A stretch of 64,000 nucleotides of DNA, taken from contig CAJNDT010003446.1 in the NCBI GenBank assembly GCA_905221615.1, positions 732,180 through 796,179 on the forward strand. The letters run 5' to 3'. Shown piece after piece: positions 10,999 through 58,895 of this stretch. Position 1 is the stretch's first letter; every line of letters starts with the position of its first letter. The notes beneath the pieces are model-generated. The model saw only the letters and a list, made by a program, of their open reading frames with translations, did not search any database and had not been told where the DNA came from. A program made the translations under genes and the position numbers. Source of the stretch: Symbiodinium sp. CCMP2592. Taxonomy: Eukaryota > Sar > Dinophyceae > Suessiales > Symbiodiniaceae.

Positions 10999-11098
10999 NN
11001 NNNNNNNNNNNNNNNNNNNNNNNNNNNNNNNNNNNNNNNNNNNNNNNNNNNNNNNNNNNNNNNNNNNNNNNNNNNNNNNNNNNNNNNNNNNNNNNNNN
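10999..11098. other. Assembly gap (100 N)
   Basis: Exactly 100 N, a conventional scaffold-gap placeholder, directly followed by a GA microsatellite. The assembly probably broke in the repeat. Confidence 0.98.
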
Positions 11099-32010: not shown

Positions 32011-32374
32011 TTACATCTATTCAAGAGACCCAAGCCCCTCAGCTGCACATGCTCCAGCAAATGGAGGTGGCAAGCGGCCGGCTTTGGAGGAGAAGGTCAG
32101 AGGGCTCCTGAGTTGAGCGGCGCTAGCTGTTCTGACATCGTTTTGTTCGATCACCATGTGGAATGGGACAGGACATAGCATCGCCAAAAAGTTTCTCAGT
32201 AAGGACTTGCGGGGCATTGCACGTGTCAGGCATGGACCTGGCTGACGCGATCCCCTCGTGGTGAACCGTCCAGTGCCCGGAGATGCTGCATTTGCCAAAG
32301 CTAAATCGAAAGAGAAGACAGGTGCTTTTTTTTTTCTTTTGTTTTTTCGCAGGTCGCCTCATTGCTTGACTCAG
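32011..32374. other. Upstream flank of the array
   Basis: No gene. It contains a pyrimidine-rich stretch (TTTTTTTTTCTTTTGTTTTTT, about 32328-32347) shortly before the AG at 32373-32374, where similarity to the other array copies begins. Confidence 0.5.
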
Positions 32375-32424
32375 CGTTTGCTGCTCAAGCGCTGCTCTCC
32401 GAGTCCTACCCTCCCGTGACAGCC

Positions 32425-34945
32425 ATGAAGCTGCTGACCTGGACGCTCGCTGCTCTGGGAGTCGTCCAGCTGAGGGCTGCAGGACGGGGCGCTGGGAAGG
32501 GCCGAGCCTTCTTAACTGCCGCTGTTTGCTAGGCCAGTGCTTGTCGTCTCCCTCTTTTCTGCTCTCGTGCAAAGCCCTCCTGCAGGACATCAGAAACTGG
32601 CAGTCGTCCGCGTGTTCTCAACTGACGAGGAGGTCCAGTTGCTCGAGGAAAGTGGCCCAGCTTGGGGACGGACGAGTCCATGCGCTGTCAAGTCGAACAT
32701 GAGCGACATCGATCTGATTTTGGTTTACAGCAAGGACTTGGCTTCGAACCCCACGGCCCTCCAGGTCGTTACGGATCTGGAGAACGGCTTTCAGAAGTAT
32801 ATGGACATGCAGAACTACAACTCCTCCAACGTGACCACGGGTACGTCATACGACTGGATGAAGTGCTTCTCGGGTATCCACCACATGTCAGCCATGTTGA
32901 ACCCAGAGCAAGACGTCTATGACAACCGAGGCTACACTACCAACAAGCATTGGGTCTCCGGTCCCAACGCCGTGTTTTCCAAGATCATGACCGAGATGTT
33001 CAGTGCAGAGCCTGCCGACATGTACGACACCTTCTTCCTGATGGAGATGGATGCCGTTCCCATCAAGAGCCATTGGCTTGACCAGTTCGAGACCGAGGCC
33101 CATGAGATGGCGGACAACAACATGGCCGTCCGCGGGAGCCAGTACCTGGGTGACAAGTGGGATCTCTTCAAATCGATGATGCCAAAGTACTTGGTGGAGC
33201 ACATCAATGGCAATGCCATGTACAACCTGAAGCATCCTTGGACCAAGGCCGTGTACGACGCGTTCCGCAGCATGGACGACGGCAGCATGATGGAAGAGAT
33301 GGCTTTCGACGTAGCCTTTGCAATGATTACCATGGATGCCATGTCTGGGAACAGCAGTGAGTTTGCTGCCGCCTGGGCCGCGGCAGGGGGCAACAGCCAA
33401 ACCTACAACTGGGACTCGATGCTGGTGGGCAACTATGCCAACACGCTTCTGAACAGCAGCTTTGAGTTCCCAACGTACATCCGCCATGGCTCGAGCAAGA
33501 ACCTGTTCGAGAATCTGGCAGATGAGCACGTGACCCTGGGCGTGGCAATGTTCGATCATCAGGGGCACTTCAAGGACACCGTTCCCACGCACCATCCCTT
33601 CAAGAAGATCCTGACTCTCACCTATTTCCCGCAGCCGAACATGACGGAGACGGTTCAGACACCGGTGGGCAATGTGACCATGATGACGCAGGCGGCCACG
33701 GCGGAGCCTTTCTATCATCTCTGCGAGACCGCCAAGCTTGTAGACACGAAATGGTTCGCCCTCACGGACAACTACCACATCATCAAGGCTCCGGTGAGTG
33801 TTCTGATGGACGCTGACGAAAAGCCAGTGCTGCCCTACGTGCTCAGGAACTCCAAGTACTGCGGCGAACGCCCGAATTGCGAGGCTTCTATGCTGCAGGC
33901 AGAGGGTCTCTTCAGCATCACACTGAACTACCATCATGACAAGTACGAGGTTCTGTACAAGACCGAGGATGCTAAGAAGTTCTGCGATGCATGGGACCTC
34001 GCAACATCAGGCACGGCAGCTGCGTCGTGGAGCAATTGCAGCTTGTCCTTCGGCCCAACTGGCGATGACTACATCGCCTGGAAGATCAGCGTGGACCAGA
34101 ACATCACCGAAGAGTTCACCCCAAAGGACAAGACGCGCTATGGCTGGAGAGCCTGGACCAGCCTCTGGAATCCGGCCCCAGTGGATGCCCGCGAGTGCAC
34201 GCCGATGCTGTACGGCCCCAAGGAGTACCTGGAAACGCTCGGCAACATCTCCAAGTGCGCGGTCGACTATGTGGAGAATGCCGGCGCATGTGAAGCAGAT
34301 GCCGCGTGTGAGTGGAAGGCCATGTTCGAGTCTGGCGTGTGCCTTCAGGATCCCAAGAGCGTCACCACGACGACAACGCTGGAGGGAACAGTCTACAGCA
34401 CCATCGAAGTCACGTTGCCACTCACCGTGGACGATGCAGCGGCGATCCTCAACAACGACACCGTGCAGAATGCCATGAAGCAAGGCTTTGCGGATGCGAT
34501 GGATGTGGACGTGGAGGATGTGATGCTGGAGATCCAAGCAGCACGACGTCTGAGCTCTCCGACACGGAAGCTTCAGACGGAGCTGTTGGCTGTGTTTTCC
34601 GTGATCATGGAAAGCCTCGACGAGGCCATCGTGAAACAGGTCGAAATCGAGACCGTGTCCCTGGATGCAACCAACCGCGCCATCGCCAGTGCCGTCGCAG
34701 CTGCGGGCTTCTCGGGCTCCGTGGAGGTGACTGGCAAGACCACCATGCGAGTGCCTGCGCCGACAACCACGACGACCACCACGAGCACCGAAGCCAGCAA
34801 CACCACCACCAGTACCACGGACGGAGGTGACGACGGCGATGCCGGCGACGATGGCGACGACGGTGACGAGGAACCGCCCAGCTCGGCAATCACCAAGACT
34901 GCCTCTTCTGTGCTGGGACTCCTCGTACTGTTGGGCTGGGCCTAA
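32425..34945 (+). CDS. Secreted, possibly GPI-anchored protein with glycosyltransferase-like region, copy 1
   Basis: Two exons, 32425-32482 and 32586-34945, encode 805 aa. Exon 1 is a classic signal peptide (MKLLTWTLAALGVVQLRAA); Gly20 spans the junction. Residues 25-270 resemble a GT-A glycosyltransferase: a DLILVY strand, then FFLMEMDAVPIKSHWLDQF (165-187, Glu173-x-Asp175 as a candidate metal or sugar-nucleotide motif), then INGNAMY (226-232). A Cys-rich segment follows (Cys557, 577, 588, 594, 605). Residues 619-740 resemble the small domain common in dinoflagellate surface proteins, with its usual RRLSS end. A Thr-rich stretch (744-765), an acidic Gly-Asp stretch and the tail SVLGLLVLLGWA follow, consistent with a GPI-attachment signal. 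More than eight N-glycosylation sequons fit secretion. Ala671 distinguishes this copy. The glycosyltransferase assignment is motif-level only; enzymatic activity is unproven. Confidence 0.85.
32483..32585 (+). other. GA-AG intron in array copy 1
   Basis: 103 bp. The exon/intron and intron/exon boundaries both read CTGCAG|GAC, so the intron is bracketed by a direct repeat and starts with GA. Removing it joins the signal peptide in frame to the main exon. In-frame stops and unlike sequence inside argue against readthrough. Confidence 0.75.
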
Positions 34946-36031
34946 GGCCTAAGCATCCGCTAGGACCAGGAGGGGAGCAGGGGCAGGGGCGCCCGAGTTT
35001 TTCCGACGGGCTGGAAGTCCCAATAGCGCGAGCAGCCCGCCGCTTTACTGTAGTGTCTTCTGATGGGGTGAATGGCCCCGCACCAATTTTGTCACAGAGC
35101 TTGATCCGGGTCCTGACCATCAAGGCCAGTAGCGAGCTCTAACTCTCTAACTCAAGCCGATACAGCAATACCGATGCTGGCAGGCACACCTGGCACGACG
35201 GAGGGCGCACTAGATGCGCACTCACACGACGAAGCATGCCATTTTGCAGGAGGCCCGTAAAGGCAAAGCCTACGGCCTACAGCGACCGAGACTTCCCGGC
35301 GGGGGCAGGTGAAGGAAACAGTGCCGAGCAGTTCGCCGAAGCGCTGAGGCTGTTTATCGCTGTCTGTCGCTATACACAGACCTCATCATGCCTGCATGGG
35401 TTGTTTCTCTAAGAGCTCACGGTTGGTCGGCATGTGTCGGAAGTGCCCAGGCTGAGCCATCGGAGTTGCAGGATCAGCTGCGGCGCACCCCGAGAACAAC
35501 TGCAGAGGACTTGCCCGAAGCGTGCAGCCGTGTCTCTGTTTGTTCCATCTTTGTGCCCAAACCTTCTGTACACCATGTGGGGTTCTTACATTTGCAGGAA
35601 GGAGAGCTGGTAAGCTTGCATGTACGGGCGCGCGCAGGCTAGCGTTCCCCGGCAAAGCATTCTGCCAGTGCTCCCGAGTCCGACTGAACCCCGCTAGTGT
35701 AGTACTTGGGGGAAGGAGTTTTGTCCTGCTGTCTCCTTGTGGTCGTCAGTGGTCGTCGTGGCGTGGCGGTCCTCGTGGTCTTATTGGGGATCTATCACTG
35801 TTTGGGGAGCCACGCTGGCATAGTGCTTTTTTTGCAGGCCTCGTGAGGAGATGCCACGCCATCTAGCGGTTCAGCAAGTTTCTCGTCGCCCGAGACTTGG
35901 CCGTGCACATGCTGTACTAGGCGTCTCATGGATGCATGAGTGTTCGACCTGCCACGCCTTTCACAAGCACCGCAAGCTCGACGACATGATGCAACAATCG
36001 AGTCGTATCTTCGAACCTTCTCTTGCTGCAG
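34946..36031. other. Array spacer 1-2
   Basis: 3' UTR and intergenic DNA, very similar to the second spacer. An ORF at 35388-35642 is cut by a stop in the next copy (GCAGGAAGGAG versus GCAGTAGTGAG), so it is not conserved coding sequence. The right end is pyrimidine-rich before the AG at 36030-36031. Confidence 0.65.
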
Positions 36032-36081
36032 CGTTTGCTGCTCAAGCGCTGCTCTCCGAGTCCTACCCTCCCGTGACAGCC

Positions 36082-38596
36082 ATGAAGCTGCTGACCTGGA
36101 CACTCGCTGCTCTGGGAGTCGTCCAGCTGAGGGCTGCAGGACGGGGCGCTGGGAAGGGCCGAGCCTTCTTCATTGCCGCTGTTTGCTAGGCCAGTGCTTG
36201 TCGTCTCCCTCTTTCTCGTGCAGAGCCCTTCTGCAGGACATCAGAAACTGGCAGTCGTCCGCGTGTTCTCAACTGACGAGGAGGTCCAGCTGCTCGAGGA
36301 AAGTGGCCCAGCTTGGGGACGGACGAGTCCATGCGCTGTCAAGTCGAACATGAGCGACATCGATCTCATTTTGGTTTACAGCAAGGACTTGGCTTCGAAC
36401 CCTACGGCCCTCCAGGTCGTTACGGATCTGGAGAACGGCTTTCAGAAGTATATGGACATGCAGAATTACAACTCCTCGAACGTGACCACGGGTACGTCAT
36501 ACGACTGGATGAAGTGCTTCTCGGGTATCCACCACATGTCAGCCATGTTGAACCCAGAGCAAGACGTCTATGACAACCGAGGCTACACTACCAACAAGCA
36601 TTGGGTCTCCGGTCCCAATGCGGTCTTTTCCAAGATCATGACCGAGATGTTCAGTGCCGAGCCTGCCGACATGTACGACACCTTCTTCCTGATGGAGATG
36701 GATGCCGTTCCCATCAAGAGCCATTGGCTTGACCAGTTCGAGACCGAGGCCCATGAGATGGCGGACAACAACATGGCCGTCCGTGGGAGCCAGTACCTGG
36801 GTGACAAGTGGGATCTCTTCAAATCGATGATGCCAAAGTACTTGGTGGAGCACATCAATGGCAATGCCATGTACAACCTGAAGCATCCTTGGACCAAGGC
36901 CGTGTACGACGCGTTCCGCAGCATGGACGACGGCAGCATGATGGAAGAGATGGCTTTCGACGTGGCCTTTGCAATGATTACCATGGATGCCATGTCTGGG
37001 AACAGCAGTGAGTTTGCTGCCGCCTGGGCCGCGGCAGGGGGCAACAGCCAAACCTACAACTGGGACTCGATGCTGGTGGGCAACTATGCCAACACGCTTC
37101 TGAACAGCAGCTTTGAGTTCCCAACGTACATCCGCCATGGCTCGAGCAAGAACCTGTTCGAGAATCTGGCAGATGAGCACGTGACCCTGGGCGTGGCAAT
37201 GTTCGATCATCAGGGGCACTTCAAGGACACCGTTCCCACGCACCATCCCTTCAAGAAGATCCTGACACTCACCTATTTCCCGCAGCCGAACATGACTGAG
37301 ACGGTTCAGACACCGGTGGGCAATGTGACCATGATGACGCAGGCGGCCACGGCGGAGCCTTTCTATCATCTCTGCGAGACCGCCAAGCTTGTAGACACGA
37401 AATGGTTCGCCCTCACGGACAACTACCACATCATCAAGGCTCCGGTGAGTGTTTTGATGGACGCTGACGAAAAGCCAGTGCTGCCCTACGTGCTCAGGAA
37501 CTCCAAGTACTGCGGCGAACGCCCGAATTGCGAGGCTTCTATGCTGCAGGCAGAGGGTCTCTTCAGCATCACACTGAACTACCATCATGACAAGTACGAG
37601 GTTCTGTACAAGACCGAGGATGCTAAGAAGTTCTGCGATGCATGGGACCTCGCAACATCAGGCACGGCAGCTGCGTCGTGGAGCAATTGCAGCTTGTCCT
37701 TCGGCCCAACTGGCGATGACTACATCGCCTGGAAGATCAGCGTGGACCAGAACATCACCGAAGAGTTCACCCCAAAGGACAAGACGCGCTATGGCTGGAG
37801 AGCCTGGACCAGCCTCTGGAATCCGGCCCCAGTGGATGCCCGCGAGTGCACGCCGATGCTGTACGGCCCCAAGGAGTACCTGGAAACGCTCGGCAACATC
37901 TCCAAGTGCGCGGTCGACTATGTGGAGAATGCCGGCGCATGTGAAGCAGATGCCGCGTGTGAGTGGAAGGCCATGTTCGAGTCTGGCGTGTGCCTTCAGG
38001 ATCCCAAGAGCGTCACCACGACGACAACGCTGGAGGGAACAGTCTACAGCACCATCGAAGTCACGTTGCCACTCACCGTGGACGATGCAGCGGCGATCCT
38101 CAACAACGACACCGTGCAGAATGCCATGAAGCAAGGCTTTGCGGATGCGATGGATGTGGACGTGGAGGATGTGATGCTGGAGATCCAAACAGCACGACGT
38201 CTGAGCTCTCCGACGCGGAAGCTTCAGACGGAGCTGTTGGCTGTGTTTTCCGTGATCATGGAAAGCCTCGACGAGGCCATCGTGAAACAGGTCGAAATCG
38301 AGACCGTGTCCCTGGATGCAACCAACCGCGCCATCGCCAGTGCCGTTGCAGCTGCGGGCTTCTCGGGCTCCGTGGAGGTGACTGGCAAGACCACCATGCG
38401 AGTGCCTGCGCCGACAACCACGACGACCACCACGAGCACCGAAGCCAGCAATACCACCACCAGTACCACGGACGGCGGTGACGACGGCGATGCCGGCGAC
38501 GATGGCGACGACGGTGACGAGGAACCGCCCAGCTCGGCAATCACCAAGACTGCCTCTTCTGTGCTGGGACTCCTCGTACTGTTGGGCTGGGCCTAA
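36082..38596 (+). CDS. Secreted, possibly GPI-anchored protein with glycosyltransferase-like region, copy 2
   Basis: Exons 36082-36139 and 36237-38596, 805 aa, with the same signal peptide, domains and tail as copy 1. The only amino-acid difference from copy 1 that I found is Thr instead of Ala at residue 671. Silent changes are more numerous (for example AATGCGGTC for AACGCCGTG in the Asn-Ala-Val codons near residue 147), which points to purifying selection or conversion rather than neglect. Start chosen as in copy 1: ATG in GCCATGAAG context, 50 bp behind the presumed acceptor. The open frame running back into the intron (to 36173) is not a real N-terminus, because it would lack the signal peptide. 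Confidence 0.85.
36140..36236 (+). other. GA-AG intron in array copy 2
   Basis: 97 bp with the same CTGCAG|GAC at both boundaries. A deletion in the pyrimidine-rich part makes it shorter than copy 1. Confidence 0.75.
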
Positions 38597-39674
38597 GGCC
38601 TAAGCATCCGCTAGGACCAGGAGGGGAGCAGGGGCAGGGGCGCCCGATTTTTTCCGACGGGCTGGAAGTCCCAATAGCGCGAGCAGCCCGCCGCTTTACT
38701 GTAGTGTCTTCTGATGGGGTGAATGGCCCCGCACCAATTTTGTCACAGAGCTTGATCCGGGTCCTGACCATCAAGGCCAGTAGCGAGCTCTAACTCTCTA
38801 ACTCAAGCCGAAACAGCAATACCGATGCTGGCAGGCACACCTGGCACGACGGAGGGCGCACTAGATGCGCACTCGCACGACGAAGCATGCCATTTTGCAG
38901 GAGGCCCGTAAAGGCAAAGCCTACGGCCTACAGCGACCGAGACTTCCCGGCGGGGGCAGGTGAAGGAAACAGTGCCGAGCAGTCCGCTGAAGTGCTGAGG
39001 CTGTTTATCGCTGTCTGTCGCTATTCACAGGCCTCATCATGCCTGCATGGGTTGTTTCTCTAAGAGCTCACGGTTGGTCGGCATGTGTCGGAAGTGCCCA
39101 GGCTGAGCCATCGGAGTTGCAGGATCAGCTGCGACGCACCCCAGGAACACCTGCAGAGGACTTGCCCGAAGCGTGCAGCCGTGTCTCTGTTTGTTCCATC
39201 TTTGTCCCCAAACATTCTGTACACCATGCGGGGTTCCTACATTTGCAGTAGTGAGAGCTGGTTAGCTTGCATGTACGGGCGCGTGCAGGCCAGCGTTCCC
39301 CGGCAAAGCATTCTGGCAGTGCTCCCGAATCCGACCGAACCCCCCTACTGTAGCACTTGGGGGAACGAGTTTTGTCCTGCTGTCTCCTTGTGGTCGTTAG
39401 TGGTCGTCGTGGCGGTCCTGGTGGTCTTATTGGAGATCTATCACTGTTTGGGGAGCCACGCTGGCATAGTGCTTTTTTTGCACGCCGCGTGAGGAGATGC
39501 CACGCCATCTACTGTAGCGGTTCATCAAGTTTCTCGTCGCCCGAGACTTGGCCGTGCACATGCTGTACTAGGCGTCTCATGAATGCATTAGTGTTCGACC
39601 TGCCACGCCTTTCACAAGCACCGCAAGCTCGACGACATGATGCAACAGTCGGGTCGAACCTTCTCTTGCTGCAG
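38597..39674. other. Array spacer 2-3
   Basis: Aligns with the first spacer, with scattered substitutions and small indels, including loss of TTCGTATC-like sequence before the acceptor. No conserved coding. Confidence 0.65.
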
Positions 39675-39723
39675 CGTTTGCTGCTCAAGCGCTGCTCTCC
39701 GAGTCCTACCCTCCGTGACAGCC

Positions 39724-42231
39724 ATGAAGCTGCTGACCTGGACACTCGCTGCTCTGGGAGTCGTCCAGCTGAGGGCTGCAGGACGGGGCGCTGGGAAGGG
39801 CCGAGCCTTCTTAATTGCCGCTGTTTGCTAGGCCAGTGCTTGTCGTCTCCCTCTTTTCTGCACTCCTGCAGGACATCAGAAACTGGCAGTCGTCCGCGTG
39901 TTCTCAACTGACGAGGAGGTCCAGTTGCTCGAGGAAAGTGGCCCAGCTTGGGGACGGACGAGTCCATGCGCTGTCAAGTCGAACATGAGCGACATCGATC
40001 TGATTTTGGTTTACAGCAAGGACTTGGCTTCGAACCCTACGGCCCTCCAGGTCGTTACGGATCTGGAGAACGGCTTTCAGAAGTATATGGACATGCAGAA
40101 CTACAACTCCTCGAACGTGACCACGGGTACGTCATACGACTGGATGAAGTGCTTCTCGGGTATCCACCACATGTCAGCCATGTTGAACCCAGAGCAAGAC
40201 GTCTATGACAACCGAGGCTACACCACCAACAAGCATTGGGTCTCCGGTCCCAATGCGGTCTTTTCCAAGATCATGACCGAGATGTTCAGTGCCGAGCCTG
40301 CCGACATGTACGACACCTTCTTCCTGATGGAGATGGATGCCGTTCCCATCAAGAGCCATTGGCTTGACCAGTTCGAGACCGAGGCCCATGAGATGGCGGA
40401 CAACAACATGGCCGTCCGCGGGAGCCAGTACCTGGGTGACAAGTGGGATCTCTTCAAATCGATGATGCCAAAGTACTTGGTGGAGCACATCAATGGCAAT
40501 GCCATGTACAACCTGAAGCATCCTTGGACCAAGGCCGTGTACGACGCGTTCCGCAGCATGGACGACGGCAGCATGATGGAAGAGATGGCTTTCGACGTGG
40601 CCTTTGCAATGATTACCATGGATGCCATGTCTGGGAACAGCAGTGAGTTTGCTGCCGCCTGGGCCGCGGCAGGGGGCAACAGCCAAACCTACAACTGGGA
40701 CTCGATGCTGGTGGGCAACTATGCCAACACGCTTCTGAACAGCAGCTTTGAGTTCCCAACGTACATCCGCCATGGCTCGAGCAAGAACCTCTTCGAGAAT
40801 CTGGCAGATGAGCACGTGACCCTGGGCGTGGCAATGTTCGATCATCAGGGGCACTTCAAGGACACCGTTCCCACGCACCATCCCTTCAGGAAGATCCTGA
40901 CACTCACCTATTTCCCGCAGCCGAACATGACTGAGACGGTTCAGACACCGGGGGGCAATGTGACCATGATGACGCAGGCGGCCACGGCGGAGCCTTTCTA
41001 TCATCTTTGCGAGACCGCCAAGCTTGTAGACACGAAATGGTTCGCCCTCACGGACAACTACCACATCATCAAGGCTCCGGTGAGTGTTTTGATGGACGCT
41101 GACGAAAAGCCAGTGCTGCCCTACGTGCTCAGGAACTCCAAGTACTGCGGCGAACGCCCGAATTGCGAGGCTTCTATGCTGCAGGCAGAGGGTCTCTTCA
41201 GCATCACGCTGAACTACCATCATGACAAGTACGAGGTTCTGTACAAGACCGAGGATGCTAAGAAGTTCTGCGATGCATGGGACCTCGCAACATCAGGCAC
41301 GGCAGCTGCGTCGTGGAGCAATTGCAGCTTGTCCTTCGGCCCAACTGGCGATGACTACATCGCCTGGAAGATCAGCGTGGACCAGAACATCACCGAAGAG
41401 TTCACCCCAAAGGACAAGACGCGCTATGGCTGGAGAGCCTGGACCAGCCTCTGGAATCCGGCCCCAGTGGATGCCCGCGAGTGCACGCCGATGCTGTACG
41501 GCCCCAAGGAGTACCTGGAAACGCTCGGCAACATCTCCAAGTGCGCGGTCGACTATGTGGAGAATGCCGGCGCATGTGAAGCAGATGCCGCGTGTGAGTG
41601 GAAGGCCATGTTCGAGTCTGGCGTGTGCCTTCAGGATCCCAAGAGCGTCACCACGACGACAACGCTGGAGGGAACAGTCTACAGCACCATCGAAGTCACG
41701 TTGCCACTCACCGTGGACGATGCAGCGGCGATCCTCAACAACGACACCGTGCAGAATGCCATGAAGCAAGGCTTTGCGGATGCGATGGATGTGGACGTGG
41801 AGGATGTGATGCTGGAGATCCAAACAGCACGACGTCTGAGCTCTCCGACGCGGAAGCTTCAGACGGAGCTGTTGGCTGTGTTTTCCGTGATCATGGAAAG
41901 CCTCGACGAGGCCATCGTGAAACAGGTCGAAATCGAGACCGTGTCCCTGGATGCAACCAACCGCGCCATCGCCAGTGCCGTTGCAGCTGCGGGCTTCTCG
42001 GGCTCCGTGGAGGTGACTGGCAAGACCACCATGCGAGTGCCTGCGCCGACAACCACGACGACCACCACGAGCACCGAAGCCAGCAATACCACCACCAGTA
42101 CCACGGACGGCGGTGACGACGGCGATGCCGGCGACGATGGCGACGACGGTGACGAGGAACCGCCCAGCTCGGCAATCACCAAGACTGCCTCTTCTGTGCT
42201 GGGACTCCTCGTACTGTTGGGCTGGGCCTAA
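39724..42231 (+). CDS. Secreted, possibly GPI-anchored protein with glycosyltransferase-like region, copy 3
   Basis: Exons 39724-39781 and 39872-42231, again 805 aa with identical architecture. Differs from copy 2 by Arg for Lys359 and Gly for Val380, and shares Thr671 with copy 2, so copies 2 and 3 are the closer pair. One base is missing from the 5' leader (CCCTCCGTG versus CCCTCCCGTG), which does not affect the protein. No broken copy exists in the array, so all three may be expressed. The EMDAVP motif and the C-terminal hydrophobic tail are intact. Confidence 0.85.
39782..39871 (+). other. GA-AG intron in array copy 3
   Basis: 90 bp, the shortest of the three, with CTGCAG|GAC retained at both boundaries. 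Confidence 0.75.
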
Positions 42232-42832
42232 GGCCTAAGCATCCGCTAGGACCAGGAGGGGAGCAGGGGCAGGGGCGCCCGATTTTTTCCGACGGGCTGG
42301 AAGTCCCAATAGCGCGAGCAGCCCGCCGCTTTACTGTAGTGTCTTCTGATGGGGTGAATGGCCCCGCACCAATTTTGTCACAGAGCTTGATCCGGGTCCT
42401 GACCATCAAGGCCAGTAGCGAGCTCTAACTCTCTAACTCAAGCCGATACAGCAATACCGATGCTGGCAGGCACACCTGGCACGACGGAGGGCGCACTAGA
42501 TGCGCACTCGCACGACGAAGCATGCCATTTTGCAGGAGGCCCGTAAAGGCAAAGCCTACGGCCTACAGCGACCGAGACTTCCCGGCGGGGGCAGGTGAAG
42601 GAAACAGTGCCGAGCAGTCCGCTGAAGTGCTGAGGCTGTTTGCTCGTCGTTATTCGCAGGCCTCATTGTGCAACATTTTTTTTTGACGTGTTTGAGGCCT
42701 CGTTCTGCACTGTGCTGTGCCTTGGAGTCTTTTGTCGTCCTTTTCAACCGCCCGTTGTTGGCCCAGGCTACGCTGCTGAACATCGGAACAGCTGAGCTGG
42801 ACCTGCATCACAGGACCTGGCCGCGTCAGGGG
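42232..42832. other. Array 3' flank and edge
   Basis: Matches the spacers to about 42666, then becomes unrelated (CATTTTTTTTTGACG). No gene. Confidence 0.6.
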
Positions 42833-54852: not shown

Positions 54853-55099
54853 GATTACTAATCAATTCCATGAGCAATCTAGCTCTTGTTTCCTTTGCCG
54901 TTGTCACTATTATGTGTCTTGCACTCGCAGAAATCAACTCTGCTCGTGGAAGCCCTTAGGCTGTTGCAGGATTGAGGCAGCAGTAGATCCTTAACTTATT
55001 CGTTGAGAGCAGAGCCTTTGAGTGACGAAGGACAATGCTGCAATCTTTCAGCTCATCAAGCTTCTAGCTGCGCTCGTGCTGGGAGTTTTGTCCATCGCC
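54853..55099. other. Upstream flank of the triplicated 106-aa gene
   Basis: The frame of copy 1 is open back to about 55022 (LIKLLAALVLGVLSIA, hydrophobic) but without an ATG, so an N-terminal extension on a spliced exon is possible. Confidence 0.4.
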
Positions 55100-55420
55100 A
55101 TGGCCAGCAGCATCGGCGAGCTCGTGATCGTGGCTCACAAGTTCCTCACTGCTCCGCAGGCGAGCCCACAGAGCTTCTGCAATGTGATCAAGCTGGGCAC
55201 CTTCTGCCGAACAGTGGTTTGGCCATGTCTGCCGCCCCTTCTCATGTACCAGTACATCCGTGGTAAGGACGACGACATGTACGCCATCGATGTCCTCTAC
55301 GCCAAGTCTGGCTCCAAGGAACCCAAAGCCTTCTTCGACGCGTCCCGCTTGAAGGGATCCAGCCACTGGCGCATGCAGCAGGACCTGGAGTCGATCCGGG
55401 CGGCCGCCAATGCTGAGTAG
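55100..55420 (+). CDS. Hypothetical 106-aa protein, copy 1 of 3
   Basis: ATG in a strong context (CGCCATGG), 106 codons, TAG. Begins MASSIGELVIVAHKFLTAPQ. A hydrophobic stretch at residues 39-53 (TVVWPCLPPLLMYQY) could be a short membrane helix or buried core. Then an acidic DDDMYAIDVL segment and a basic/helical C-terminus ending ESIRAAANAE. Cys27, 36 and 43. No known family. In this copy only, the frame upstream of the ATG stays open and hydrophobic for 26 codons, so the native protein may be longer. Confidence 0.65.
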   Translation: MASSIGELVIVAHKFLTAPQASPQSFCNVIKLGTFCRTVVWPCLPPLLMYQYIRGKDDDMYAIDVLYAKSGSKEPKAFFDASRLKGSSHWRMQQDLESIRAAANAE

Positions 55421-55742
55421 ACAGATACTGTGCACAGCAGTCTTTGATTTCTGATAGTAAACGAAAAGGGAGTCTTGCCACATCTTGCCACCACGCGTTC
55501 TGAGCGGCAAAATGTTCTCGTGCATGTGTTTGCCGGGCTTTATCGAGAGCTTCATTCTGGGGCGGTTAGGAAACTCAGGCATGCGGGGTGCGGGTAACGA
55601 TTGCGATTTTCATTTGTGCTTGAGGTGAAAAACTCTACTGAGCATTGTGCTCTTGCAGTGAAACAGCTATCCCTGCTTTTATACGTCTGCCAGTCGGGCT
55701 CCTATGGTTGTGCGAACACCAAGTCTGCGCTGAGACGTCGCC
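55421..55742. other. Spacer between copies 1 and 2
   Basis: No visible similarity to the copy 2-3 spacer or to the DNA before copy 1, apart from short words next to the stop codon (TAGACAG versus TAGGCAG). Confidence 0.55.
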
Positions 55743-56063
55743 ATGGCCAGCAGCATCGGCGAGCTCGTGATCGTGGCTCACAAGTTCCTCACTGCTCCGC
55801 AGGCGAGCCCACAGAGCTTCTGCAATGTGATCAAGCTGGGCACCTTCTGCCGAACAGTGGTTTGGCCATGTCTGCCGCCCCTTCTCATGTACCAGTACAT
55901 CCGTGGTAAGGACGACGACATGTACGCCATCGATGTCCTCTACGCCAAGTCTGGCTCCAAGGAACCCAAAGCCTTCTTCGACGCGTCCCGCTTGAAGGGA
56001 TCCAGCCACTGGCGCATGCAGCAGGACCTGGAGTCGATCCGGGCGGCCGCCAACGCTGAGTAG
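55743..56063 (+). CDS. Hypothetical 106-aa protein, copy 2 of 3
   Basis: The protein is identical to copy 1. The only nucleotide difference I see in 321 bp is a silent AAC for AAT three codons before the stop. Upstream DNA (TGAGACGTCGCCATGG) has an in-frame stop just before the ATG, so this copy cannot have the N-terminal extension that is open in copy 1 unless it is spliced on. Confidence 0.6.
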   Translation: MASSIGELVIVAHKFLTAPQASPQSFCNVIKLGTFCRTVVWPCLPPLLMYQYIRGKDDDMYAIDVLYAKSGSKEPKAFFDASRLKGSSHWRMQQDLESIRAAANAE

Positions 56064-56357
56064 GCAGTAGACATCTCAGGCTGCATGAAGCAGGCCGAAC
56101 TCGACTCGGTTTTGGTATCCCGTGCGAAATGATCGGGACAACCTGGTGCAGCAAGAAAGGAGACATGCAGAGAGATTGCCATAGATGATGCCATGTAATC
56201 GCCAACCGTAGCTCTTCATACATGCTTGACATTCTTGTCGGTTCGCCCGTCTGCCTGCATCTTGTATGTTCTGCCGTGTGCATATGTCAGGGCTCGAAAG
56301 CAGAGCACATCCAGAGTGGACCCCCGGCCAGTGCGGGCCACCAAGACTTAGATAGCC
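56064..56357. other. Spacer between copies 2 and 3
   Basis: Unrelated to the first spacer. No gene. Confidence 0.5.
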
Positions 56358-56678
56358 ATGGCCAGCAGCATCGGCGAGCTCGTGATCGTGGCTCACAAGT
56401 TCCTCACTGCTCCGCAGGCGAGCCCACAGAGCTTCTGCAATGTGATCAAGCTGGGCACCTTCTGCCGAACAGTGGTTTGGCCATGTCTGCCGCCCCTTCT
56501 CATGTACCAGTACATCCGTGGTAAGGACGACGACATGTACGCCATCGATGTCCTCTACGCCAAGTCTGGCTCCAAGGAACCCAAAGCCTTCTTCGACGCG
56601 TCCCGCTTGAAGGGATCCAGCCACTGGCGCATGCAGCAGGACCTGGAGTCGATCCGGGCGGCCGCCAATGCAGAGTGA
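56358..56678 (+). CDS. Hypothetical 106-aa protein, copy 3 of 3
   Basis: The protein is identical to copies 1 and 2. Nucleotides differ only at the penultimate Ala codon (GCA for GCT) and the stop (TGA instead of TAG). Both flanks differ from those of the other copies. An AGATAGCCATGG context retains the GCCATGG start. Whether all three are genes, alternative exons or converted copies is open. Confidence 0.6.
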   Translation: MASSIGELVIVAHKFLTAPQASPQSFCNVIKLGTFCRTVVWPCLPPLLMYQYIRGKDDDMYAIDVLYAKSGSKEPKAFFDASRLKGSSHWRMQQDLESIRAAANAE

Positions 56679-57046
56679 CCTGCCAGGGCTGGCAGCACGC
56701 CCTTAGGCCCCAGACCGTGGCAAGCTTCATGACCAGAACTTTTTTAAAGTCGCACCTGGAGCAAGTCCAGTGTTTCGAAAGTCTGGATTGAGGCGCCGTG
56801 GGCTCGAGATGCAACTCTTGCGAGCCCGTCCATGGCGAAGCTACGAACTAGGTTCAAAAGCACGCATGCCGCATACGGGATTCGAGTGGGCGTATTCGCA
56901 GTAGACACTAGGCATTGCAAGTGTTTCGTCTTCTGATGATTGTCAAGGTCAGAGTTGTTTACGTGTAATTAGCGGTTCTGAAGTATTGCCATCCGTCGTG
57001 TTATCATCAAAAGCCTGGTGTTGTCGACACCCACTGTCATAAGTAA
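56679..57046. other. 3' flank of the 106-aa gene cluster
   Basis: No gene recognised. Confidence 0.45.
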
Positions 57047-58540: not shown

Positions 58541-58895
58541 GCCGAGTGCGAGCGCCGAAACCCTCAAAGCCCAGACATTAGAAAGGAGCTCGAAAAAAAC
58601 CTTCAAAGCCCAGACATTAGAAAAGAGCTCGAAAAAACTCTCAAAGCACAGACCTTAGAAAGGAGCTCAAGAAGAAACCCTCAAAGCCCAGACTTTAGAA
58701 AGGAGCTCAAAAAGAAAGGCCTCAAAGCCCAGACGTTAGAAAGGAGCTCAGAAAGAAACCCTCAAAGCCCAGACCTTAGAAAGGAGCTCAAAAAGAAAGG
58801 CTTCGAAGCCCAGACATTAGGAATCATCTCAAAAAGAAACCCTCAAAGCCCAGACTTTAGAAAGGAGTTCAAAAAAGAAACCCTCAAAGCCCAAC
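58541..58895 (+). repeat. Eight-unit tandem repeat (38-41 bp) behind the shared 23-bp motif
   Basis: Starts with the 23-bp motif (GCCGAGTGCGAGCGCCGAAA). Then come eight units built on CCCAGACATTAGAAAGGAGC followed by an A-rich part and CTCAAAG. Unit lengths by count are 39, 38, 40, 41, 40, 41, 40 and 41 bp. A 190-aa frame (58496-59068) runs through it, but because unit lengths are not multiples of three the peptide alternates between frames. I do not call it a gene. Confidence 0.8.

Follow-up and report, generated by a model that had tools for sequence, protein, structure and literature searches.

Three tandem SDHG-like genes in a dinoflagellate genome with near-identical coding sequences between unrelated flanks, probably homogenised by gene conversion

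The window, that is the whole 64,000-nt stretch of Symbiodinium sp. CCMP2592 DNA analysed here (C3446:732180-796179), contains an array of three head-to-tail genes on the forward strand, each 321 bp long with 106 codons and following one another at pitches of 643 and 615 nt (Table 1). The genes appear to be intron-free, judging from the single open frame found in each, and their third positions are GC-biased (GC3 0.80-0.82). The array itself is free of N, and the window has a single gap, a run of 100 N at 10999-11098. Genome searches covered the 1.098-Gb assembly consisting of 5383 contigs, and neither the DNA search nor the protein search of the whole genome detected copies beyond these three. 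A 21-mer which we take to be the dinoflagellate spliced-leader sequence gave 217 forward and 212 reverse exact matches in the genome and its reversed control none, so the genome is that of a dinoflagellate.

Table 1 Features of the SDHG-like gene array, with positions counted from the first letter of the window
Feature	Position	Strand	Description
copy 1	55100..55420	+	106-aa SDHG-like gene, stop TAG
AAAAG candidate polyadenylation motif	55464..55468	+	44 nt past copy 1 stop
spacer 1	55421..55742	.	322 nt; unlike other spacer and flanks; 317 nt searched, single genome match
TTGCAG candidate trans-splice acceptor of copy 2	55653..55658	+	read by eye
copy 2	55743..56063	+	protein as copy 1, C at position 312, stop TAG
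spacer 2	56064..56357	.	294 nt; unlike other spacer and flanks; 285 nt searched, single genome match
copy 3	56358..56678	+	protein as copy 1, A at position 315, stop TGA

The 106-aa protein is identical across all three copies. Pairwise, the genes differ at one (position 312), three (315, 320 and 321) or four (312, 315, 320 and 321) of 321 positions, all of them accounted for by synonymous changes that affect codons 104 and 105 and by the TAG/TGA difference at the stop. An earlier note on this DNA had correctly placed all the differences in the last codons and the stop, although the number it gave, two or three bases, has to be replaced by these counts. Its description of identity running from GCCATGG to the stop codon is borne out as well: the 5′ edge common to the three copies lies at -3 (GCC ATGG), that of copies 1 vs 2 at -5 (TCGCC), and identity is unbroken up to position 311. 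Codons 1-103 contain no changes at 69 synonymous sites, 49 of them fourfold, and synonymous divergence there is far below the divergence of the flanks.

The spacers are dissimilar, as had been claimed, and no extended flank similarity was found. Searches with word-7 blastn between the spacers and the outer flanks gave chance matches only (E ≥ 0.81 between different stretches), and none of nine flank pairs of 280 nt, six comparing like with like and three comparing upstream with downstream, was more similar than shuffled sequence, the local score being reached by at least 46 of 200 shuffles and the global one by at least 89. An origin of the spacers from repeats was ruled out within the sensitivity of the search, each spacer matching itself alone in the 1.1-Gb assembly, and an upstream exon common to the copies was rejected since neither spacers nor flanks share a block. 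Copy 1 alone has an open extension of its frame upstream, at 55022-55099, which counts 26 codons starting with a GTG and would encode a hydrophobic segment; this is probably due to chance. Downstream of the array there is a tandem repeat at 58557-58893 with a unit of ~40 bp and copies 85-87% alike (blastn).

Candidate processing sites can be pointed out in the surroundings of each gene. The polyadenylation motif sought here comes from Amphidinium, for which AAAAG/C sites have been described (PMC2488372); besides the occurrence listed in Table 1, AAAAG is found at 56856, 178 nt past the copy 3 stop, and behind copy 2 there is just AAAGG, at 56156. The AG ends of candidate acceptors read by eye lie at 54930, 55658 and 56290, which is 169, 84 and 67 nt ahead of the ATGs of copies 1, 2 and 3, respectively; a simple acceptor/polyadenylation scan did not select these candidates. 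Leader, 3′ region and processing sites would be private to each copy, each presumably giving rise to its own mRNA, and the separate copies may provide gene dosage together with freedom for regulatory divergence.

The 106-aa protein matches a PDB chain named SDHG (9fq7, also 9fzl) with a phmmer E value of 1.7e-23, query residues 17-104 being aligned to residues 72-159 of 160 with an identity of ~42 of 88 aligned residues as counted from the printed alignment midline. The C termini of the two proteins almost coincide, whereas the 160-aa SDHG chain has 71 residues ahead of the matched part compared to 16 here. No family match was obtained for the protein in Pfam and nothing was found in the window by Rfam at gathering scores. 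A single-sequence structure model of the protein had a mean pLDDT of 46.5, which is too poor for use. Going by the name of the chain, the array product is probably a subunit of mitochondrial succinate dehydrogenase (complex II).

The window harbors a second array at 32365-42666, where a gene with a single 2244-bp frame (748 aa) occurs in triplicate. This array is of the whole-unit kind, that is, similarity extends over both genes and spacers. There are 9-21 coding differences per 2244 positions (99% alike), and the spacer is alike at 1336 of 1383 aligned positions (96.6%) with 26 gap columns. The 748-aa protein has no PDB match, and the only match given by Pfam is a sub-threshold one to DUF6178. 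A census of 264 kb of the contig revealed two clear coding arrays, one coding-limited and one whole-unit.

Gene arrays elsewhere in the genome were found by a search for the light-harvesting family (PF00504), which yielded at least 165 matches when 150 out of 743 first-look candidates had been scored; a search for the PCP family gave 143 matches, with many unevenly spaced groups among them. Eleven closely spaced light-harvesting groups were hand-picked, not drawn at random, among the matches listed, and no frequency can be derived from the counts that follow. In nine of the 11, similarity continues through the coding part and the spacer, with 97.0-99.6% identity over long matches; one of these, L032, has diverged members at one end (m8-m10) and is otherwise a whole-unit array. 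The internal spacers of L036 and L038-L041, to which the figures are restricted and only where longer spacers were comparable, differ by 0.1-4.6%. The spacers of L032, L033 and L034 are 60 nt long or empty under the crude definition used, the class of these arrays resting mainly on whole-unit similarity, and L035 was left out of the internal-spacer count because its match contains stops.

In the remaining two light-harvesting arrays, L037 and L042, identity is restricted to a block with its 3′ end at the stop codon. L037 (C5163:1387900-1395000) consists of four copies with pitches of 1910, 2316 and 1242 sharing an 821-bp block with 98.9-99.6% identity. In all four this block begins at CTGCAG, with two possible in-frame ATGs following 62 and 83 nt further on, and extends as far as the stop codon; the flanks of the copies are unrelated. 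Its leader, taken up to the later of the two possible ATGs, has 6 variable sites of 81 compared to 8 of 740 in the rest (p = 0.0012); reading this excess as an edge effect was rejected, the leader sites being less constrained. L042 (C1336:937000-941500) consists of two copies with a 1215-bp block of 99.5% identity ending at the stop codon plus one matching base, and a 51-bp upstream piece of 88% identity situated at a differing distance in the two copies. The upstream piece would represent exon 1, separated from the main block by a short GC-AG intron, the splice sites being our own reading, and the putative intron sequence is unrelated between the two copies. Five of ~9 synonymous sites are changed in exon 1 (45 bp) and four of ~284 in the 1.2-kb exon 2 (Fisher p = 8.7e-7), and the differences in the long block are not clustered at its edges.

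Non-coding duplications are also present on the contig outside the window. At C3446:597515-624108 (L013-L016) six same-strand segments of 131-299 bp make up three pairs that are 99-100% identical and follow one another in a mirrored arrangement (A B C ... C B A). Two of the downstream members open inserts of ~320-330 bp that are flanked by direct repeats (211 and 262 bp), and one upstream member is intron-like; these mirrored pairs possibly stem from a faulty assembly or from the repair of staggered breaks with templated filler. At C3446:554277-558646 (within L009) two copies of ~1 kb are 98.8% identical and a third contains the inner 504 bp only, with 98.6-99.6% identity; no convincing reading frame was detected in these copies.

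We consider it likely that the SDHG-like genes are an old nuclear array in which the coding sequence alone has been homogenised by recurrent interlocus gene conversion. Once the genes had been duplicated, the spacers and untranslated regions, being unconstrained, would have diverged past recognition, leaving the coding sequence, its ends held in register through selection on the protein, as the sole remaining stretch long enough for homologous pairing. Recurrent conversion would then homogenise the coding stretch, its interior most and its edges least. Gene conversion limited to the coding sequence was among the possibilities raised in the earlier note, and support for it comes from the absence of changes at the 69 synonymous sites, from the edge-clustered differences and from L037 and L042. 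The three neutral changes of the SDHG-like array, two synonymous and one in the stop, all lie in the last codons at one block edge, for which the probability is ~5e-5 under uniform placement over neutral sites and 6e-4 for the two synonymous changes alone, in a test made after the sites had been seen.

The block edges of the SDHG-like array and the stop-codon ends in L037 and L042 look old, because only translation recognises stop codons. Blocks that end there are expected to have been trimmed by protein-level selection, which takes time, so the low synonymous divergence would be recent. Both exons of L042 should share the age of the gene pair, from which it follows that the long exon would have been homogenised and the short one not, as is expected if conversion requires a minimum homology length. 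L042 would in this way indicate more directly than the SDHG-like array that copies predate their coding divergence, to which the unrelated unique spacers and edge-clustered changes of the latter point only indirectly. Speaking against conversion, no mosaic or incompatible splits were found among the three SDHG-like copies or among those of L037, where in both cases the variable sites fit one tree, and the long block of L042 lacks the edge clustering.

A toy simulation of homology-dependent conversion, with four runs per rate and parameters chosen by hand and not fitted, produced whole-unit identity at the highest rate, and at intermediate rates identity limited to the coding part, with its edges diverged. 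At rates 1 and 3 flank identity was 0.25-0.34, core synonymous divergence 0.018-0.044 and edge divergence 0.125-0.271; flank identity reached 0.92 at rate 10, and core divergence was 0.70 at rate 0 and 0.50 at rate 0.3. The simulated states resemble the two array classes seen in the genome. A point against the proposal is that spacers of intermediate divergence are few, namely those of L038 (K 0.046) and of the 2244-bp array in the window.

Sharp edges alone do not prove conversion, as sharp-edged non-coding duplicates occur on the same contig. The copies could instead be young, resulting from recent local copying and pasting of a segment of ~311-330 bp with filler DNA between the copies, as after staggered breaks. 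In line with this, a 264-kb part of the contig contains eight sharp-edged local duplication pairs of 131-1011 bp, which are 96-100% identical and, in those that were checked, show no convincing reading frame; two of them are the 211- and 262-bp direct repeats around inserts mentioned above, whose geometry is like that of the array. This explanation seems unlikely to us, however, as it requires the edges to have landed twice no more than a few bases from start and stop, and at the stop in two other loci, and it leaves both the edge-clustered differences and the contrast between the exons of L042 unexplained. Just as unlikely as such pasting is RNA- or cDNA-templated conversion, in which reverse transcripts of mRNAs would overwrite the copies and homogenise transcribed exons only. 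It agrees with L042, where identity spans the exons and excludes the intron, and with the exclusion of intergenic DNA, and for dinoflagellates a recycling of cDNAs has been proposed (Slamovits and Keeling 2008, as cited in PMC5029490). A cDNA template is nevertheless unnecessary, since DNA-level conversion with diverged introns and untranslated regions yields an equal pattern; besides, by our own reading the intron persists in both L042 copies, and the blocks of L037 and L042 extend beyond the acceptor by 6-7 nt of intron-side sequence, which would be absent from cDNA, although a conserved acceptor could account for this short identity. An assembly artefact, in which the consensus of a collapsed repeat was pasted between unique flanks, is rated lower still: gaps of 100 N and 2500 N do occur in the 264-kb stretch, but the array is free of N, copies 2 and 3 carry private changes beside their own unique flanks, the block is merely 311 bp long and the pattern recurs at other loci with other block lengths.

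Two further readings of the SDHG-like array appear very improbable. Purifying selection at the nucleotide level, acting through codon or RNA constraint with no conversion, finds some backing in the GC bias of third positions, and codon bias is among the explanations offered for similar yeast pairs (PMC2728529); such a constraint would have to be very strong to leave 49 fourfold sites unchanged beside dissimilar flanks, and the synonymous sites of L042 exon 1 diverge freely. The free divergence of this isolated exon speaks against very strong constraint, put forward in the earlier note, as the sole cause. The copies could also be mutually exclusive or alternative terminal exons of a single gene, and an upstream exon is conceivable given that the solved SDHG relative (160 aa) is longer at the N terminus. 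Yet every copy has a start of its own, always in the same surroundings, as well as its own stop; in copies 2 and 3 stops close the frame three and two codons upstream, there is no AG acceptor at the shared block edge in copies 1 and 2, and the spacers contain no common exon-like block, so the mutually exclusive exons suggested earlier find little room here.

Should recurrent conversion of the coding sequence indeed have shaped the array, near-identical tandem copies in dinoflagellates need not be young, the coding part having been kept fresh and the surroundings fully turned over, and age estimates for duplicated genes of such genomes would be affected. The arrays would also provide a natural gauge of the minimum homogenised block, 311 bp being sufficient and ~50 bp set apart from a 1.2-kb exon not, and one respiratory protein is predicted to be made from several mRNAs with differing untranslated regions. 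A much wider proposal is that dinoflagellates maintain tandem genes in many arrays by continuing start-to-stop (exon-only) copying of ~300-bp blocks, possibly templated by mRNA or cDNA, which would uncouple the protein from freely evolving regulatory surroundings; we regard this generalisation as unlikely.

With published dinoflagellate arrays the SDHG-like genes share same-strand copies and short spacers but not spacer conservation. The arrays of Amphidinium (PMC2488372) and Polarella (PMC7245778) are likewise described as tandem and mostly intron-poor with short spacers, whereas spacers are reported as conserved within actin clusters in Amphidinium (PMC2488372) and, for Polarella, as ~95% identical in the blocks of PCP and 89% in those of bacteriorhodopsin (PMC7245778), those of the present array being unrelated. 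For Symbiodinium light-harvesting genes, unit shuffling via gene conversion and/or rearrangement has been proposed (PMC4351107). No report of a dinoflagellate array with coding-limited identity was found at the level of titles and opening parts of abstracts among the literature matches listed.

Outside dinoflagellates, Trypanosoma brucei has arrays under concerted evolution as here, including Tb61 with three distinct unrelated types of untranslated region (PMC1855330). Non-coding DNA is, however, reported to be more variable than coding DNA in the histone arrays only, and disrupted spacers are said there to have tended to accompany copies escaping concerted evolution (PMC1855330), which is opposite to what is proposed here. 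In Leishmania, the coding regions of beta-tubulin loci evolve in concert and the untranslated regions of separate loci are largely unalignable (PMC1533823), similarly to the SDHG-like genes, but the contrast is between loci on different chromosomes, and spacers within the L. major array are given as 98-100% identical (PMC1533823). Yeast duplicates with low KS resemble the present array in combining low synonymous divergence with homology confined to the ORF: flanking homology of 0-10 bp is reported for 80% (5′) and 86% (3′) of these pairs, and for the older pairs the authors name flank divergence plus conversion and/or codon bias (PMC2728529). The yeast pairs differ in being two-member families, many of them derived from genome duplication (PMC2728529), whereas here three head-to-tail copies lie ~300 nt apart. 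Coding-limited homogenisation has thus already been described for yeast and Leishmania paralogs, and the SDHG-like array is a further example, with an instructive internal control.
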